64,000 bases of DNA from Flavobacteriales bacterium (GTDB lineage: Bacteria > Bacteroidota > Bacteroidia > Flavobacteriales_E > Vicingaceae): contig JABTUP010000003.1 in NCBI GenBank assembly GCA_015075325.1, positions 62,001-126,000 of the forward strand, read 5' to 3'. The position numbers and the translations under genes were made by a program. Positions 9,785 through 50,563 of this stretch are shown one piece after another. The number at the start of each line of letters is the position of its first letter. Position 1 is the stretch's first letter. The notes below the pieces were generated by a model. That model was not told where the DNA came from. It worked only from the letters and a program-made list of their open reading frames with translations, and did not search any database.

Positions 9785-9820
9785 CTTAACAATAACTAAT
9801 TATTTAACTTCGTATCTTTG
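9785..9820 (+). promoter_or_regulatory. Promoter of the leader-bearing gene at 9892
   Basis: A perfect TAnnTTTG box (TATCTTTG, 9813-9820) lies 22 bp after CTTAAC (9785-9790). The same CTTAAC with 21-bp spacing to TACTTTTA precedes the second leader copy (12313-12347). The predicted transcript start, about 6 nt downstream, falls at the base of the leader stem. Confidence 0.6.
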
Positions 9821-9825
9821 TTTCG

Positions 9826-9876
9826 AAAATTAAGCTTGATTACCTAGAGGGAAGTTCCCGAAACCATCTTAATTTT
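9826..9876 (+). promoter_or_regulatory. Conserved structured 5' leader, copy A
   Basis: A 9-bp perfect closing stem (AAAATTAAG 9826-9834 with CTTAATTTT 9868-9876) encloses a core beginning TGATTACCTA (9837-9846) and ending CCCGAAACCAT (to 9867). A small hairpin (GGGA, 3-nt loop, TCCC) sits inside the core. The ATG lies 15 nt after the stem. A second copy with the same core and a different but complementary closing stem lies at 12356-12405. I do not recognise it as a named riboswitch or RNA family. Confidence 0.7.
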
Positions 9877-9891
9877 TTCTCTAACTAACCA

Positions 9892-12153
9892 ATGTTTATT
9901 AATGCAAAGACTAGTTTAATAGTTGTTGTTATATTCTTTTTTACTTGCGTTACAAGTAATTTAAACGCTCAAACTCCTAGTACCTGTTTTGAAATTGAGA
10001 GCATCTTGGTTGATGCCTGTGGAACCATTGAAGGCGAAAACGAAATGGTTCGTTTTGTTGTTGGTCCTTCTAATTTAAACGTAAATAATTTAAATGTAAG
10101 CTGGCCAAATGCGTCAAATGCTTATTTAGGAATATGTAAAAATTCAACCACTGCTTCAAAAGTTGCCGCTTTAAACAGCAGCATAGTTGGATGTGGTTTT
10201 TTAAAAGAACCCACATCAAATATTCTTCCGGCTGGTGCAAAAGTTATTTTACTTACCAGCACTAGTTTTGATGTTTCGGCAAATTCATTCGCTAACCTCA
10301 ACGACACCGTTTATGTAATTTTTCAATGTTCAGGAAACACCGCTGGTCATTTTGCCAATTTTGGAACAGGAACTCGAACGCTTACCATGTCATTTTCATC
10401 TCCAGTAGGTTGTTCTGATGCTATAACCTACAATAGAGCATTGTTAGTTGACCCAACAGGTATTCCAGTAGCTTCAGATGGTGGCAGAGTAGATTATACA
10501 TGGTCTGGAACACCAACCTATACAAATGATGGGTGTTCGGCTCCAATCGAAATTACTGCTATTGATATTACAACCCCATCTCCAACTATTTGCTCAGGCG
10601 AAACCATCAATTTATCTTCAACTATTTTAGGAAATATTACTGGATTACAATGGTCTGGAGGAAATGGCGTTTTTACTTCTCCAAATACCACCTCAACCAA
10701 TTATGTATCCTCAACTGGTGATGCAACTGATTTTTATATTTATTTATCAGGAACTACCTCTTGCGGTGAAATACTAAAAGATAGTTTACTCATTCAAATA
10801 GGAGGAAACAATTCCTCAGTTAACATTTCTGCTACAACTAGTGAAATTTGTAATGGTGATAGCATTTTGTTAACTGCATCTGGAACTGGAAATTACACTT
10901 GGAATACTGGTAGTACTAACACAAGTATTTATGTTTCCTCAACTGGTTCGTATTTCGTAACAAGTACTTCATCTTGCGGAAGCTCATCAGACACCATTAC
11001 CATTACTGACGCTCCAACCATTAATTTAGCCCTGATTGCTTCTTCAACCGAAATTTGTGATGGAAACTCGGCAACACTAACAGCTAGTGGAGCTCCTAAT
11101 TACACTTGGTTTAATGGCAATACAAATAGCACAGAAAATGTAACTTCTTCTGGAAATTATTATGTTATCGGATACAACAATTGTTATAGAGATTCTCAAT
11201 CGGTATTTATTAATGTAATTCAGCAACCAACCGTTAGTATTTCTAGTTCAGCTCCTTCGCTTGAAATTTGTGTTGGAGAAACCATTACACTTACTGCAAA
11301 TGGTTCTGGAAATTATTTATGGAATACTACTGATACATCAACATCTATTTTAATAACAAGTGCAGGTACGTATTCGGTTTCATCAAGCAACACTTGTTTT
11401 TCAGCTTCTGATACCATTACCATTGTAAATGGAATTTTTCCTGTAGCTTCAATCGTTGGCGACTCCATTTTGTGTAACAGTGAAACAATTACATTATCAG
11501 CATCTGGTGGCGACAATTACATCTGGTCAAATGGAAATACAAGTTCAAGTTCAACATTTAATTCTGGAGGTCAGGTTTATGTGGTGGCCGCAAACAATTG
11601 TGGAACAGATACCGCTTATTTCACTATTTTAAATTCTAGTTTATCAGCATCTTTCACTTCTGATTATGTTTACGGTAGCGACGTTCCAATTGATGTGATT
11701 TTTACAAATACCTCAACAAATGCTACAACTTACAATTGGAACTTTGGAAATGGCAATATAAGTTCAATTGAAAATCCAAAAAATACTTATACAACAAACG
11801 GAACATATTTAGTTACCCTTACTGCTTCAAATTTACACTGCTCTGATGTTTTTGAAACGGAATTGATTTTTGAATCACCAAATGGAGTGTTTATTCCAAA
11901 TGTGTTTACACCAAATAATGATGGAACAAATGATGTATTTTCAATTGTTGGTGAAAATATTGCAGCATTACATGCCGAAATCTACAACAGATGGGGTGAA
12001 AAACTTTTTTCATGGGATAATGCAACTGGTTTTTGGGACGGAACGTACAACGGAAAATCTGCATCAGATGGCACTTATTTTTATGTTGCAAAAATTAAAT
12101 GGCAAGATAAAACAGAAGAAACCATTAGAGGACACGTAACCCTGTTAAAATAA
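9892..12153 (+). CDS. Large T9SS-exported protein, Ig-like repeats and CHU_C sorting domain
   Basis: This 753-residue protein has a signal peptide (residues 1-26, ending NLNAQ). Residues about 30-215 form a domain starting CFEIESILVDACGTIEGENEMVRF, also found in the protein at 12420. Five Ig/PKD-like repeats follow (about residues 225-580), each with phrases such as ICxGxxITLTASGxGNYxWNTGxTxxS. A PKD domain (TNTSTNATTYNWNFGNG) precedes a CHU_C sorting domain (IPNVFTPNNDGTNDVF, IYNRWGEKLF, WDGTYNGKSASDGTYFYV). It is likely surface-exposed and adhesive, but that is inferred from architecture only. The conserved structured leader lies directly upstream. Confidence 0.88.
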   Translation: MFINAKTSLIVVVIFFFTCVTSNLNAQTPSTCFEIESILVDACGTIEGENEMVRFVVGPSNLNVNNLNVSWPNASNAYLGICKNSTTASKVAALNSSIVGCGFLKEPTSNILPAGAKVILLTSTSFDVSANSFANLNDTVYVIFQCSGNTAGHFANFGTGTRTLTMSFSSPVGCSDAITYNRALLVDPTGIPVASDGGRVDYTWSGTPTYTNDGCSAPIEITAIDITTPSPTICSGETINLSSTILGNITGLQWSGGNGVFTSPNTTSTNYVSSTGDATDFYIYLSGTTSCGEILKDSLLIQIGGNNSSVNISATTSEICNGDSILLTASGTGNYTWNTGSTNTSIYVSSTGSYFVTSTSSCGSSSDTITITDAPTINLALIASSTEICDGNSATLTASGAPNYTWFNGNTNSTENVTSSGNYYVIGYNNCYRDSQSVFINVIQQPTVSISSSAPSLEICVGETITLTANGSGNYLWNTTDTSTSILITSAGTYSVSSSNTCFSASDTITIVNGIFPVASIVGDSILCNSETITLSASGGDNYIWSNGNTSSSSTFNSGGQVYVVAANNCGTDTAYFTILNSSLSASFTSDYVYGSDVPIDVIFTNTSTNATTYNWNFGNGNISSIENPKNTYTTNGTYLVTLTASNLHCSDVFETELIFESPNGVFIPNVFTPNNDGTNDVFSIVGENIAALHAEIYNRWGEKLFSWDNATGFWDGTYNGKSASDGTYFYVAKIKWQDKTEETIRGHVTLLK

Positions 12154-12161
12154 TTTCGACA

Positions 12162-12263
12162 ATGAAAGACAGAATTAAAACCATACAAGATTTACAAAAA
12201 TTATTATTAATTGTTTTTGGAATATTAGTACCTGTTTTTCTTTTGTTTATCTTTTTTAGTTGA
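12162..12263 (+). CDS. Possible 33-residue single-pass membrane protein
   Basis: An ATG 8 bp after the preceding stop opens a 33-codon frame: a charged, amphipathic start (MKDRIKTIQDLQKLL) followed by one strongly hydrophobic helix (LLIVFGILVPVFLLFIFF). A terminator hairpin follows at once. The tight coupling and clean topology support a real small gene, but nothing identifies it and it could be chance. Confidence 0.4.
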   Translation: MKDRIKTIQDLQKLLLIVFGILVPVFLLFIFFS

Positions 12264-12266
12264 TTC

Positions 12267-12293
12267 TTTTTCAACAACTTGTTGAAAAATTTT
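12267..12293 (+). terminator. Rho-independent terminator
   Basis: An 11-bp inverted repeat (TTTTTCAACAA and TTGTTGAAAAA) is followed by a T run. It closes the transcript of the gene at 9892 and the small ORF after it. Confidence 0.7.
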
Positions 12294-12355
12294 AACCCAC
12301 ATTTAATTTATTCTTAACCTTTACCATCTTAATAATTGGTACTTTTACACTTGTA

Positions 12356-12405
12356 AACTGTAAAGTGATTACCTACAGGGATTTTCCCGAAACCATTTTA
12401 TAGTT
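12356..12405 (+). promoter_or_regulatory. Conserved structured 5' leader, copy B
   Basis: The closing stem pairs AACTGTAAA (12356-12364) with TTTATAGTT (12397-12405), with one G-U wobble. Its sequence differs from copy A but it pairs in the same place. The core (12366-12396) begins TGATTACCTA and ends CCCGAAACCAT and matches copy A at 28 of 31 positions. The differences lie in or next to the small hairpin loop. The ATG is 14 nt after the stem, nearly the same spacing as copy A. Confidence 0.7.
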
Positions 12406-12419
12406 ATTTCATTTTCAAC

Positions 12420-15059
12420 ATGTTTTCTCGGGTAGTACTTCTTGGTATTATTCTTTTAACTTCAATGAGTTTGTTGGGGCAAGTTTACCAACATAACTTT
12501 GGAACTACTACTATAAGCACTCATCCGTACACTTCAGCTCCAGGAACTCTTGATGCAAACCTTTCAAACTCTTCTTGGTCAAACTCAACTGGGGCTTGGA
12601 CATCTTATGCAGGTAGCTCTGGTCAAGCCATATCTCTAAGCAATTCCAGTGGAACTCCTACAATTACTTTAACTTTTGATATAACTGGAGGTTGCTCTCT
12701 AGATATTACTTCTTTTAATTTTTGGAGACAACGGAGTAATAGTGGAGCTCAAAATTGGTCAATGACTATTAATGGAACAAATGTAGGAAGTGGAACGATA
12801 CCTACAACTGGAGCTGCTGTTGGCAACACTGCTGTTTCAGGAATGACAGGTTTAACAGGTACTGTAACTATTGTAATTAGTCTTTCAGGAGCAACTGGTA
12901 CAGGAACCTTTAGATTAGATGATTTTACTTTATTTGGATCAACTTCATGTGGAGGAAGTTCTCACACAGTTACTTTTAATGGAAATGGAAACGATGGAGG
13001 CTCCATGAGCAATCAAACAGCAAGTGGCTCAACAGCCTTAACAACAAATGCATTTACAAAAACAGGTTGTAGTTTTACTGTATGGAATACTGCATCAGAT
13101 GGTAGTGGTACATCTTATACTAATGGTGCTACTTATGATTTTTCAGCAGACATAACATTATATGCACAATGGAATTGTAGCCCTCCCACTGGTGGAAATT
13201 GTATGGATGAAGATTTTGTAGATTTCTCTGATTGGACAAATTATGGTACAGCAACCGATAATGATGCTAGCCATTATGGAGCTAATGGCCCATGTAGAGC
13301 TTTAGGTACTGGAGATAATTTAGAATCTCCTTCTGTTGATAATCCAACTCAACTACAATTCTATCAAGATGCAAGTAGTGGGGGTAGTGGCAGTACTGCA
13401 ACTGTTAAATATAGCTTAGATGGAGGAACCACTTGGGTAGCTTGTTATTCTTTTACTGTTAGTTCTTCGGGAGCAACAGAAACTGTTGATTTAACGAATG
13501 TAGGAGGTGTTGATCTTTCTGCAGAGACTGGCGTAATTTTTCAATTTTCATCTTCATTTAATACATGGTACTTAGATGATGTTTCTGTTACTTGTGGTAC
13601 TCCAGCCCCAAACACAATAACAACTGGCTCAATTACTGGTTCCCCTTTTAGTATACAATGTGCTACAAATGATAATGGCTCAGTAGCATTTATATCAACA
13701 GATGTATATGGAGCTGGCAACATATATACCGCTCAATTATCTGATGCTTCAGGAAGCTTTAGTTTTCCTGTTAATATTGGGACATTAACATCTACTGCAA
13801 ATAGCGGCACTATAAACATTACTATTCCAGCAGGAACACCTAGTGGTTCAAATTATAAGATAAGAGTAATTTCTTCAAATCCTTACATAGTTGGAAGCGC
13901 ATCATCTGCTTTTACAATTACATTAACCGATGGACCTTGTGCTCCTCCTCATATTACAAGTGTTTTGTTTAACGGATGTGACCCTGCAGGATGTGGTGGA
14001 GAAGGTCGATCTGAAATGGTTTTTGCAAACACAGGAGTAAACAGTGTTCTTGTAAATTCTTCTAATTTAGATTTAATTTATCCAGGATCACCACCTTACG
14101 ACATGCTTGGCTCAATTGTAAGTAATGCCTCTACAATAACAACCATGAATGATAGTGCTGCATGTGGAACGCTTTTTTATGATGCAAACGGTCAGACTGT
14201 TCCGCCAAACACCACACTTTTATTAGTTTCATCAGATATATGTGCTGAAATTAATTTCGATTGGTCATCACTTTGTGGAAGTGGACCTATTTACGTTGTT
14301 TTCGGCCAATCAGGAACATTGGGTGACACATGGCATGATAGTGGTAATTTTGGAAACTCAAGCGGCACAAAAACATTTGATTTAGATATTACAGCAACCG
14401 ATGCCATTACTTATGGCTACACCTATTCTTACGTTTCAGGAAATCAAGGTGATGGCGAATATGCTACTTTTTCGTCCTCTCCTCCTGGCGGAAATGCTTT
14501 AAATACTGGTGTACTTCCTGATTGTAAAATAACTGTTGCTGTTCTCCCAATCGAATTACTTTCATTTACTGGCAAATCAATTGGTTCATCAAACTTGTTG
14601 GAATGGAAAACAACAACCGAAATAAACAACGATTATTTTACTTTAGAACGCTCATCGAATGCAACTCATTTTAGTGAATTAGGAATAATTGAAGGTGCTG
14701 GAAATAGCAATACTTTACTTCACTATCAATACACTGACAATGCTCCACTAGAAGGAGTAAATTACTACAGATTAAAACAAACCGATTTTGATGGCAGATT
14801 TAGTTATTCAAACATTGTTGCACTAAGTAATAAAACAACCGCATTTAGTATTTGGAACTCTGCCGAAACGCTTTTTATCAAAGGTGACAATGAAAATTCA
14901 ACAAGTTCTTTAAAAATATATAACTTGCTTGGAGAATTGGTTCTTGAAAAATATTTTCAAGAAAATATTACTATCAACACAACTGATTTTAGTTCTGGAA
15001 TTTATTTAGTAAAAATTCAAAGCAATGAAAATCTAATTACTCAAAAGGTAAAATTCTAA
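12420..15059 (+). CDS. T9SS-exported multidomain protein with type A sorting domain
   Basis: An 879-residue protein with a signal peptide ending at SLLGQ (residue 21). Residues about 22-175 resemble a beta-sandwich ending TFRLDDFTLFG. Next is a Listeria-Bacteroides (InlB B-type) repeat near residues 182-255 (VTFNGNGNDGGSMSNQTA ... DITLYAQW), then a MAM-like region (about 265-395). Residues about 510-700 share the extracellular domain of the neighbour at 9892 (VLFNGCDPAGCGGEGRSEMVF, later AITYGYTYS). The C-terminus is a type A sorting domain (LKIYNLLGELVLEKYF ... SGIYLVKIQSNENLITQKVKF). A surface role is likely; the exact function is unknown. The structured leader precedes it. Confidence 0.87.
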   Translation: MFSRVVLLGIILLTSMSLLGQVYQHNFGTTTISTHPYTSAPGTLDANLSNSSWSNSTGAWTSYAGSSGQAISLSNSSGTPTITLTFDITGGCSLDITSFNFWRQRSNSGAQNWSMTINGTNVGSGTIPTTGAAVGNTAVSGMTGLTGTVTIVISLSGATGTGTFRLDDFTLFGSTSCGGSSHTVTFNGNGNDGGSMSNQTASGSTALTTNAFTKTGCSFTVWNTASDGSGTSYTNGATYDFSADITLYAQWNCSPPTGGNCMDEDFVDFSDWTNYGTATDNDASHYGANGPCRALGTGDNLESPSVDNPTQLQFYQDASSGGSGSTATVKYSLDGGTTWVACYSFTVSSSGATETVDLTNVGGVDLSAETGVIFQFSSSFNTWYLDDVSVTCGTPAPNTITTGSITGSPFSIQCATNDNGSVAFISTDVYGAGNIYTAQLSDASGSFSFPVNIGTLTSTANSGTINITIPAGTPSGSNYKIRVISSNPYIVGSASSAFTITLTDGPCAPPHITSVLFNGCDPAGCGGEGRSEMVFANTGVNSVLVNSSNLDLIYPGSPPYDMLGSIVSNASTITTMNDSAACGTLFYDANGQTVPPNTTLLLVSSDICAEINFDWSSLCGSGPIYVVFGQSGTLGDTWHDSGNFGNSSGTKTFDLDITATDAITYGYTYSYVSGNQGDGEYATFSSSPPGGNALNTGVLPDCKITVAVLPIELLSFTGKSIGSSNLLEWKTTTEINNDYFTLERSSNATHFSELGIIEGAGNSNTLLHYQYTDNAPLEGVNYYRLKQTDFDGRFSYSNIVALSNKTTAFSIWNSAETLFIKGDNENSTSSLKIYNLLGELVLEKYFQENITINTTDFSSGIYLVKIQSNENLITQKVKF

Positions 15060-48799: not shown

Positions 48800-48872
48800 G
48801 CCACTATAGCTCAGTTGGTAGAGCAGCTGATTTGTAATCAGCCGGTCGGAGGTTCGAGTCCCTCTAGTGGCT
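48800..48872 (+). tRNA. tRNA-Thr (anticodon TGT)
   Basis: A 73-nt cloverleaf. The acceptor GCCACTA pairs with TAGTGGC, the D arm starts GCTCAGTTGG, the anticodon loop is TTTGTAA, and the T arm is GGTTCGAGTCC. The CCA end is not encoded. It is first of four tRNAs before tuf, the same order as in many bacteria (thr-tyr-gly-thr-tuf). Confidence 0.95.
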
Positions 48873-48897
48873 CCGTTCTTTAAGAACTTGAAATGTT

Positions 48898-48979
48898 GGG
48901 GAAATACTCAAGCGGTCAACGAGGACAGACTGTAAATCTGTTGGCCACGCCTTCGTAGGTTCGAATCCTGCTTTCCCCA
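48898..48979 (+). tRNA. tRNA-Tyr (anticodon GTA)
   Basis: An 82-nt class II tRNA with a variable arm. The acceptor GGGGAAA pairs with TTTCCCC; the anticodon loop holds CTGTAAA; the T arm is GGTTCGAATCC. The long variable arm (GGCCACGCCTTCG) is expected for bacterial tRNA-Tyr. Confidence 0.95.
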
Positions 48980-48996
48980 CGAGAATTAAAAAATTA

Positions 48997-49070
48997 GCGG
49001 GAGTAGCTCAGCTGGCTAGAGCATCAGCCTTCCAAGCTGAGGGTCGCGGGTTCGAATCCCGTTTCCCGCT
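48997..49070 (+). tRNA. tRNA-Gly (anticodon TCC)
   Basis: A 74-nt cloverleaf with acceptor GCGGGAG against TTCCCGC (one wobble), anticodon loop CTTCCAA and T arm GGGTTCGAATCCC. Confidence 0.95.
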
Positions 49071-49091
49071 CTTTTTTTATATGTCGGTAAA

Positions 49092-49163
<72 letters not shown>

Positions 49164-49238
49164 CTATAAAATTGAATTTTGAAGTATAGTAAATAATTAA
49201 AAGTTAATATAAATAAGTAAATAAATAAACCGAAAATC

Positions 49239-50426
49239 ATGGCTAAAGAGAATTATGATCGTTCCAAACCGCATTTAAACATCGGAACAATTGGTCACGT
49301 TGACCACGGTAAAACTACTTTAACTGCAGCTATCACTACAGTTTTAGCGAAAAAAGGTTTTGCTGAATTAAGAGATTTTGCTTCAATCGACAACGCTCCT
49401 GAAGAAAAAGAAAGAGGTATTACAATTAATACTTCACACGTTGAATATTCAACTGCAAACAGACACTACGCTCACGTAGACTGTCCAGGTCACGCGGATT
49501 ACGTAAAAAACATGGTAACTGGTGCTGCTCAAATGGACGGTGCTATCCTTGTTGTTGCTGCTACAGATGGACCAATGCCACAAACTAGAGAGCACATTCT
49601 TTTAGGAAGACAAGTTGGTATTCCAAGAATCGTTGTATTCATGAATAAAGTGGATATGGTTGACGATGCTGAGTTGTTAGAACTTGTTGAAATGGAAATT
49701 AGAGAGCTTTTAAGCTTCTACGAATACGATGGCGACAATGCTCCTGTAATCGCAGGTTCAGCTTTAGGTGCATTAAATGGTGAAGAAAAATGGGTTAAAA
49801 CAGTAGAAGATTTAATGGATGCTGTTGACTCATATATCGAAATGCCTCCTAGAGATGTTGACAAACCATTCTTAATGCCAGTAGAAGATGTATTTTCTAT
49901 TACAGGTAGAGGTACAGTAGCAACAGGTAGAATTGAAACAGGTGTAATCAACTCTGGTGAAACTGTAGATATTTTAGGTATGGGTGCTGAAAAATTATCA
50001 TCAACTGTAACTGGTGTTGAAATGTTTAGAAAAATATTAGACAGAGGTGAAGCAGGTGATAATGTTGGTCTTTTATTAAGAGGTATTGAGAAAACTGATA
50101 TCAGAAGAGGTATGGTTATCGCTAAACCAGGATCAATAACTCCTCACTCAGAATTTACTGCTGAAGTTTATATCTTGAAAAAAGAAGAAGGTGGACGTCA
50201 CACTCCATTTCACAACAAATACAGACCTCAATTCTACATCAGAACAACAGATGTTACTGGAGAGATTTACTTACCAGAAGGAAGAGAGATGGTTTTACCA
50301 GGTGACAACGTTTCAATCACTGTTAAATTGATTGTTCCAGTTGCTATCAACAAAGGTTTAAGATTTGCAATTAGAGAAGGTGGTAGAACAGTTGGTGCAG
50401 GTCAGGTAACTGAAATTATTAAATAA
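49239..50426 (+). CDS. tuf: Elongation factor Tu
   Basis: The 395-residue GTPase delivers aminoacyl-tRNA to the ribosome. The G domain has GHVDHGKT (residues 19-26), [12 protein letters not shown] and NKVDMVDD. The domains 2 and 3 are intact and end with [15 protein letters not shown]. It is transcribed with the four preceding tRNAs; a conserved bacterial arrangement. Confidence 0.98.
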
Positions 50427-50436
50427 TAATAGAAAA

Positions 50437-50483
50437 AAAGACCAAGCTAAGGTGTTCTTAAACGGGACACCTTTCTTGTCTTT
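50437..50483 (+). terminator. Hairpin after tuf, terminator or attenuator
   Basis: An imperfect stem (AAAGACCAAGCTAAGGTGT with GACACCTTTCTTGTCTTT) about 20 bp long lies between tuf and tRNA-Trp, followed by a T-rich stretch. It may reduce readthrough into the tRNA-Trp and secE. Confidence 0.65.
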
Positions 50484-50490
50484 AAATTTT

Positions 50491-50563
50491 ACGGGTGTAG
50501 CTCAATTGGTAGAGTAGTGGTCTCCAAAACCATTGGTTGGGAGTTCGAGTCTCTCCACCCGTG
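50491..50563 (+). tRNA. tRNA-Trp (anticodon CCA)
   Basis: A 73-nt cloverleaf with acceptor ACGGGTG against CACCCGT, anticodon loop CTCCAAA and T arm GAGTTCGAGTCTC. It lies between tuf and secE. Confidence 0.95.

Follow-up and report, generated by a model that had tools for sequence, protein, structure and literature searches.

The window analyzed here, a 64,000-nucleotide stretch of DNA from a Flavobacteriales bacterium, carries two genes for exported proteins that are each preceded by what appears to be the same short leader. This raises the questions of whether a structured RNA lies in front of them, how widely such an element occurs, and how it could act on the genes that follow. The original prediction of two leader RNA copies upstream of these genes was borne out by direct reading of the sequence at both positions (Table 1). 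As it had claimed, the 31-nt cores (9837-9867 and 12366-12396) are identical at 28 of 31 positions and lie 24 and 23 nt from the respective start codons (ATG at 9892 and 12420), and the closing stems, unlike in sequence, nonetheless pair in each copy (AAAATTAAG/CTTAATTTT in copy 1, AACTGTAAA/TTTATAGTT in copy 2). The transcription start that it predicted at the 5′ edge of each copy is plausible in view of the TAnnTTTR-type −7 boxes, which were read directly from the sequence.

The two leaders and the genes behind them

Using a consensus pattern with up to three mismatches, the two copies were the only matches in the 3.3 Mb genome, with no match in the reversed control, and the final covariance model (R3) retrieved exactly these two from the window up to E = 10. 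Compared with shuffled sequences on folding energy alone, copy 2 was far more stable (z −3.5), and copy 1 was not unusual (z −0.15), so that it is covariation, and not energy, that supports a structure. Both downstream genes, which we presume to be controlled by the leaders, encode T9SS cargo, in agreement with the original prediction; its description of them as related holds for export and not for close homology, as the two products are not close paralogues and show only weak similarity, in a single domain (170 aa at 28% identity). Orthologues of the gene for the 753 aa protein sit behind the element in several families. Between the second gene (12420-15059) and its counterpart in a sister species (L008:8552-10564), the signal peptide is kept (16 of 21 aa identical), as is the C-terminal half with the sorting domain, and the N-terminal mature part is replaced, from which we infer that domains are swapped while the leader and the signal peptide stay constant.

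Table 1. Positions of the leader copies, their genes, and related features (window numbering where no contig or locus handle is given)
Feature	Position	Strand	Content or basis
Leader RNA copy 1	9826..9878	+	R3 37.9 bits, E 7.5e-8 in window; fold; homologues
Copy 1 P1 stem	9826-9834 + 9837-9838 with 9865-9866 + 9868-9876
Copy 1 conserved 5′ loop	9839-9848		ATTACCTAGA
Copy 1 P2	9849-9852/9856-9859
Copy 1 conserved 3′ loop	9860-9864		GAAAC
Copy 1 −7 promoter box	9813..9820	+	TATCTTTG (TAnnTTTG type)
Gene downstream of copy 1	9892..12153	+	753 aa exported protein; PKD domain, T9SS type B (CHU_C) sorting domain
Leader RNA copy 2	12355..12408	+	R3 57.3 bits, E 2e-13 in window; fold
Copy 2 P1 stem	12356-12367/12394-12405
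Copy 2 5′ loop	12368-12377		ATTACCTACA
Copy 2 P2	12378-12381/12385-12388
Copy 2 3′ loop	12389-12393		GAAAC
Copy 2 −7 promoter box	12340..12347	+	TACTTTTA (TAnnTTTR)
Gene downstream of copy 2	12420..15059	+	879 aa exported protein; Flg_new repeat, T9SS type A (Por_Secre_tail) sorting domain
Further copy, same genome	C1:167237		before 108 aa exported protein gene
Further copy, same genome	C12:21077		before 252 aa exported protein gene
Further copy, same genome	C23:134238		before 842 aa outer-membrane-type protein gene, weak TonB plug match
Tandem pair	L045 (= G284) 1306-1446
Tandem pair	L068 (= G233) 1023-1168
Tandem pair	L069 50-164
Tandem pair	L084 2640-2781
SpoIIE/SiaA-like phosphatase	L144:621-1490	-	element 10 nt upstream
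SpoIIE/SiaA-like phosphatase	L148:292-1209	-	element 291 nt upstream, less certain
QDVSGLLQSSRDVFTSIAGFN family member	L159:4194-6719	-
QDVSGLLQSSRDVFTSIAGFN family members	L161, L164, L067, L111, L125, L129
Long-gap copies, family f16	L124:1501-1582, L128:1501-1586, L041:1501-1567	-

Distribution and covariation of the element

The absence of further copies with compensatory pairs had been named as grounds for refuting the prediction; many were found, in related as well as distant genomes, and the collected set comprises approximately 129 non-redundant copies. Within the genus, all four genomes carry the element at one locus, before the two secreted-protein genes that lie between guaA and bshC in the window. 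A second covariance model (R2) admitted loop forms with an extra C (ACCCUAUA) that occur before other exported-protein genes. At this step P1 was almost wholly changed (e.g., AAATTATAAAATG/CATTTTATAATT, AGTCAACTACGTG/CACGTAGTGATTGT, and AGGTTTTTAAGTG/CGCTTTTAAACCT) and the loop letters were kept, and across 395 genomes of the class R2 yielded three true copies in other families (L038 in f21, L041 in f16, and L044 in f41), each upstream of a secreted-protein gene. An exact pattern, AAGTGANNAYCCTANA-N8..38-AAACCRCTT, matched 69 stretches in 84,980 species genomes, nearly all of them from Bacteroidota (mostly MAGs) and located just before a gene for a signal-peptide protein. A rough estimate gave three to four matches expected by chance, which fits the two matches outside Bacteroidota (L058 and L102) that we judged to be chance; the only match among viral contigs (L114) was judged likewise from its context.

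At E ≤ 0.01, the model R3, built from 71 copies, gave positives in 40 of the 395 genomes of the class, which come from families f1, f16, f21, f37, f41, and f44. One further match, in G176 (f54), lies inside a gene and was judged false, and seven early covariance matches were discarded after context reading, being inside genes (L023, L025, L031, L040, and L042) or lacking a fitting gene (L026 and L039). Full scoring of eight genomes revealed four to eight copies in each, with almost no matches between E = 0.01 and 0.3; the genome harboring the window has five, the two described above and three elsewhere (Table 1). A phylum-wide sample of 296 genomes returned only this genome and one borderline match, which indicates that the RNA class is clade-limited. 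Taken from sequence data, the element is a widespread RNA family in several families of mostly uncultured Bacteroidota. The element-bearing MAGs of the family to which the window belongs (L110, L085, L071, L052, and L103) are labeled Flavobacteriales in public records.

The predicted layout consists of a P1 stem, a 5′ loop of the form GA-NN-A(Y)CCUANA, a variable P2 hairpin, and a 3′ loop (N)AAAC. The core-proximal part of P1 reads AAGUG/CRCUU and its outer part is free in sequence, and P2 is free in both sequence and length, spanning 11-51 nt. The core is nearly invariant over the 129 copies, with CCT after GA in 129, AACC[AG] in 128, and AAACC in 112. Since alignments made by a model are biased toward its structure, shuffled, slid, and alignment-free controls are what matter here. 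In the alignment of 71 sequences (A8), 89% of the cells were paired against 72.5% after shuffling, double changes numbered 172 against 67 and affected 13 of 15 pairs, and slid structures reached at most 50% pairing (at most 57% over the alignments tested). A further alignment (A9), consisting mostly of copies from which R3 had not been built, exhibited 84% pairing against 71% and 115 double changes against 56, again in 13 of 15 pairs, with none of 500 shuffles as high on any measure; an early 17-member alignment (A4) had given 93% against 76%. Without any alignment, pattern-selected copies extended pairing beyond the fixed stem by 1.47 bp compared with 0.75 bp in shuffles (the highest of 2000 shuffles reached 1.22). 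The P2 segment also folded better than its shuffles (mean z −2.3). No strong mutual information pointing to an extra tertiary pair was found among the loop letters. Compensatory changes beyond the controls, as a structured leader calls for, are thus present in the predicted stems.

The same pairs bear on whether the element could instead be a DNA inverted repeat, a transcription-factor operator and not an RNA. The dyad symmetry and the proximity to a promoter are what such an operator would offer, but its arms are alike in pairing and not in sequence, the conserved letters occupy the unpaired center, and the element lies downstream of the −7 box. Moreover, G.U pairs (68) are twice as frequent as A.C pairs (35), and one pair in A8 alternates between U-A (40) and U-G (29), which fits an RNA read from this strand better than a palindrome in the DNA and makes the operator highly improbable.

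Position and target genes

Of 126 copies, 99 have a TAnnTTTR sigma-A-type −7 box within the 60 nt that precede the CCTA anchor, whereas a control stretch contains one for only 15 of 126, and the element is therefore predicted to lie at or near the 5′ end of the transcript. All copies whose context was read are in sense orientation and 5′ of the gene, and overlap with an ORF is limited to five of 129 copies, for some of these via an upstream ATG. The start codon mostly follows at 10-40 nt, and usually at 10-30 nt, across an A/U-rich spacer in which A is favored at −3, a feature described for Bacteroidota translation (PMC6847099). At four loci, tandem copies only a few nt apart precede a single gene. 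A position on the same strand, 5′ of genes and in a putatively untranslated leader, is the second property expected of a structured leader, and it holds as well. A leader-peptide attenuator, in which the conserved letters would be a small coding frame, can scarcely be entertained: a frame from an NTG in P1 is open in some members of the genus (e.g., MITYRAFPETIL in L012), but the required conservation of a short frame is not met, with a stop within eight codons in 58 of 125 copies, the 12- and 13-nt loop forms breaking the frame, and the CCTAGA and CCTAAA variants constituting a stop in the 12-nt form.

The genes behind the element are strongly enriched in T9SS sorting domains. The type A domain (PF18962) was detected in 35 of 73 complete downstream proteins, compared with 9 of 125 neighboring proteins, and the CHU_C domain (PF13585) in 16 of 73 compared with 3 of 125; overall, approximately 70% of the complete downstream proteins and 10% of the neighbors carry a T9SS sorting domain, a trend that an NCBIfam search reproduced. 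This link to T9SS and surface proteins holds across families. Other targets include TonB-plug-like outer-membrane proteins, a family of M43 peptidases, and lamin-tail proteins. An intracellular signaling protein also occurs among these otherwise exported targets, as genes for SpoIIE/SiaA-like PP2C phosphatases are found behind the element in two families, and further non-exported targets, a dihydropyrimidinase (L170) and a DeoC-like aldolase (L124), are more than 100 nt away. None of the targets is a metabolic or transport gene that would indicate a ligand.

As a separate observation, the element in several families accompanies genes of an outer-membrane-type protein family of approximately 840 aa, marked by an N-terminal QDVSGLLQSSRDVFTSIAGFN signature; Pfam hardly recognises these proteins beyond a weak TonB plug match, and no PDB relative was found by sequence.

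The element is accordingly a conserved structured RNA lying in cis to exported-protein genes at their predicted 5′ ends. That it is a real cis-regulatory RNA is almost certain, the regulation being inferred in the absence of expression data, and element-bearing bacteria probably tune the proteins placed on or outside the cell through a common RNA sensor.

Comparison with known RNAs and possible modes of action

An Rfam match to a known element had also been counted as refuting. No such match appeared: with Rfam 15, the element had none in the window at gathering score, and searches relaxed to E = 5 near the copies and to E = 1 in 14 relatives produced only off-target chance matches. The sole Rfam matches in the window are a cluster of five tRNA genes (48800-50563). 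A published description of the element was not found in the literature (open-licence papers only, supplementary files excluded), nor did the open-licence literature yield an RNA element linking Bacteroidota T9SS cargo and other exported proteins as one post-transcriptional regulon. The proposal of an unrecognised cis-regulatory leader for surface-protein genes is thus supported by the further covarying copies, the Rfam absence, and the T9SS link, and the element is a new class among the known kinds of cis-regulatory leaders, belonging to no described family.

The c-di-GMP-I riboswitch (GEMM, RF01051) is found repeatedly within a genome, at times as tandem copies, ahead of unrelated genes for surface and extracellular proteins. 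The element resembles it in this multi-copy, tandem, surface-gene placement; its core is different, however, and has no Rfam match. By gene content c-di-GMP would be the obvious analogous effector, but among 52 genomes, 30 of them element-bearing, GGDEF (PF00990) was detected in only one, with control profiles as expected, and the absence of GGDEF proteins from the other 51 makes c-di-GMP very unlikely. Flavo-1 (RF01705), Bacteroidales-1 (RF01693), Bacteroid-trp (RF01692), and 6S-flavo (PMC2864571) are likewise structured RNAs of Bacteroidota, and Flavo-1 is likewise without known function, but with Rfam 15 (E up to 1-5) none of them was matched by the element or by its relatives. In Flavobacterium psychrophilum, Flavo-1 matches in transcribed regions lay on both strands (PMC9723704), whereas the element is always in sense and 5′ of a gene in the copies whose context was read. 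The same study describes structured 5′ transcribed regions without an Rfam match, which are similarly unlisted leaders from the same phylum; those named there precede genes for metabolism and translation (pheA, hisG, ftsY, acsA, alaS, and rimP) and not T9SS cargo (PMC9723704). The element also resembles orphan riboswitch candidates in general, with which it has in common a conserved loop, covarying stems, a 5′ UTR location, tandem copies, and a regulon-like gene set, although no ligand, switching, or recognised expression platform has been demonstrated for it. With approximately 130 strongly covarying copies and a defined core and target genes, this orphan RNA class is ready for testing.

We favor, with a probability of roughly 0.6, a 5′-terminal cis-regulatory RNA whose loop reads one trans-acting signal and tunes the translation of exported, mostly T9SS-dependent proteins. 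By comparison of the copies, P1, at about the 5′ end of the predicted transcript, closes an asymmetric internal loop with P2 on top, followed by a short A/U-rich single-stranded spacer up to the start codon. The invariant loop is inferred to be the binding site of one effector common to about five target genes per genome; binding would stabilize P1 and alter access of the 30S subunit to the start region just downstream. The set of exported proteins would then be adjusted together at the post-transcriptional level, and tandem copies would make the response steeper. The start region in Bacteroidota has no Shine-Dalgarno sequence and is tuned by structure, as found for F. johnsoniae mRNA near the start codon (PMC6847099), and for an element placed just upstream of such a structure-sensitive start, control of translation or of linked mRNA stability is the simplest interpretation. 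A T-run follows P1 in 26 of 128 copies (8 expected), but no conserved terminator or other expression platform was seen across copies, the start codon comes soon after the end of P1, and downstream segments able to pair with the CCCUA or AAACC loop (an anti-aptamer) were not enriched. An action on translation or linked mRNA stability, and not on termination, is inferred as probable. Against the preferred explanation stand the lack of any experiment and of a conserved expression platform, the ordinary folding energy of copy 1, the few non-exported targets, and the absence of a ligand-indicating gene.

The nature of the effector is inferred without binding data. Because the invariant loop is long and copies occur in tandem, we lean toward a small molecule, to which we give not quite an even chance, and a protein seems rather less probable. 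A new riboswitch class, with a signaling molecule not yet linked to RNA control in Bacteroidota as its ligand, is a tentative possibility for which no binding data exist either. Its GA-NN-A(Y)CCUANA / AAAC loop would sense the signal and set the composition of T9SS-exported surface proteins, tandem copies would sharpen the response, and at least one genome would have a SiaA-like phosphatase under the same control. Binding of a metabolite would mean a new signal for surface remodeling in a large, mostly uncultured group.

Alternatively, an RNA-binding protein (e.g., RRM) or an envelope-stress regulator could bind the leader and repress or stabilize exported-protein mRNAs, which we consider possible though rather doubtful. 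The unrelated targets within a genome have only export in common, as is typical of a protein-controlled regulon, and the small core, the lack of a ligand-suggesting metabolic gene, and the lack of a conserved alternative downstream structure fit this as well; the asymmetric loop, however, is long, nearly invariant, and more than a simple protein site would mostly require, no regulator has been identified, and no inspected target is an RNA-binding protein that would indicate autoregulation. A protein of this kind would regulate the exported proteome globally, and would do so in bacteria that initiate translation without Shine-Dalgarno sequences. Less likely still, the 5′-terminal stem could merely shield the mRNA from decay without sensing anything. 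Most copies lie at the predicted 5′ end, and a long-lived mRNA may suit exported structural proteins, but a stem would suffice for this, leaving the invariant 12 + 5 nt internal loop superfluous and the tandem copies hard to explain.

With regard to spacing, family f16 differs from the rest in that the gap between the element and the start codon is approximately 140-216 nt, far longer than elsewhere (Table 1), and something else may lie between them.
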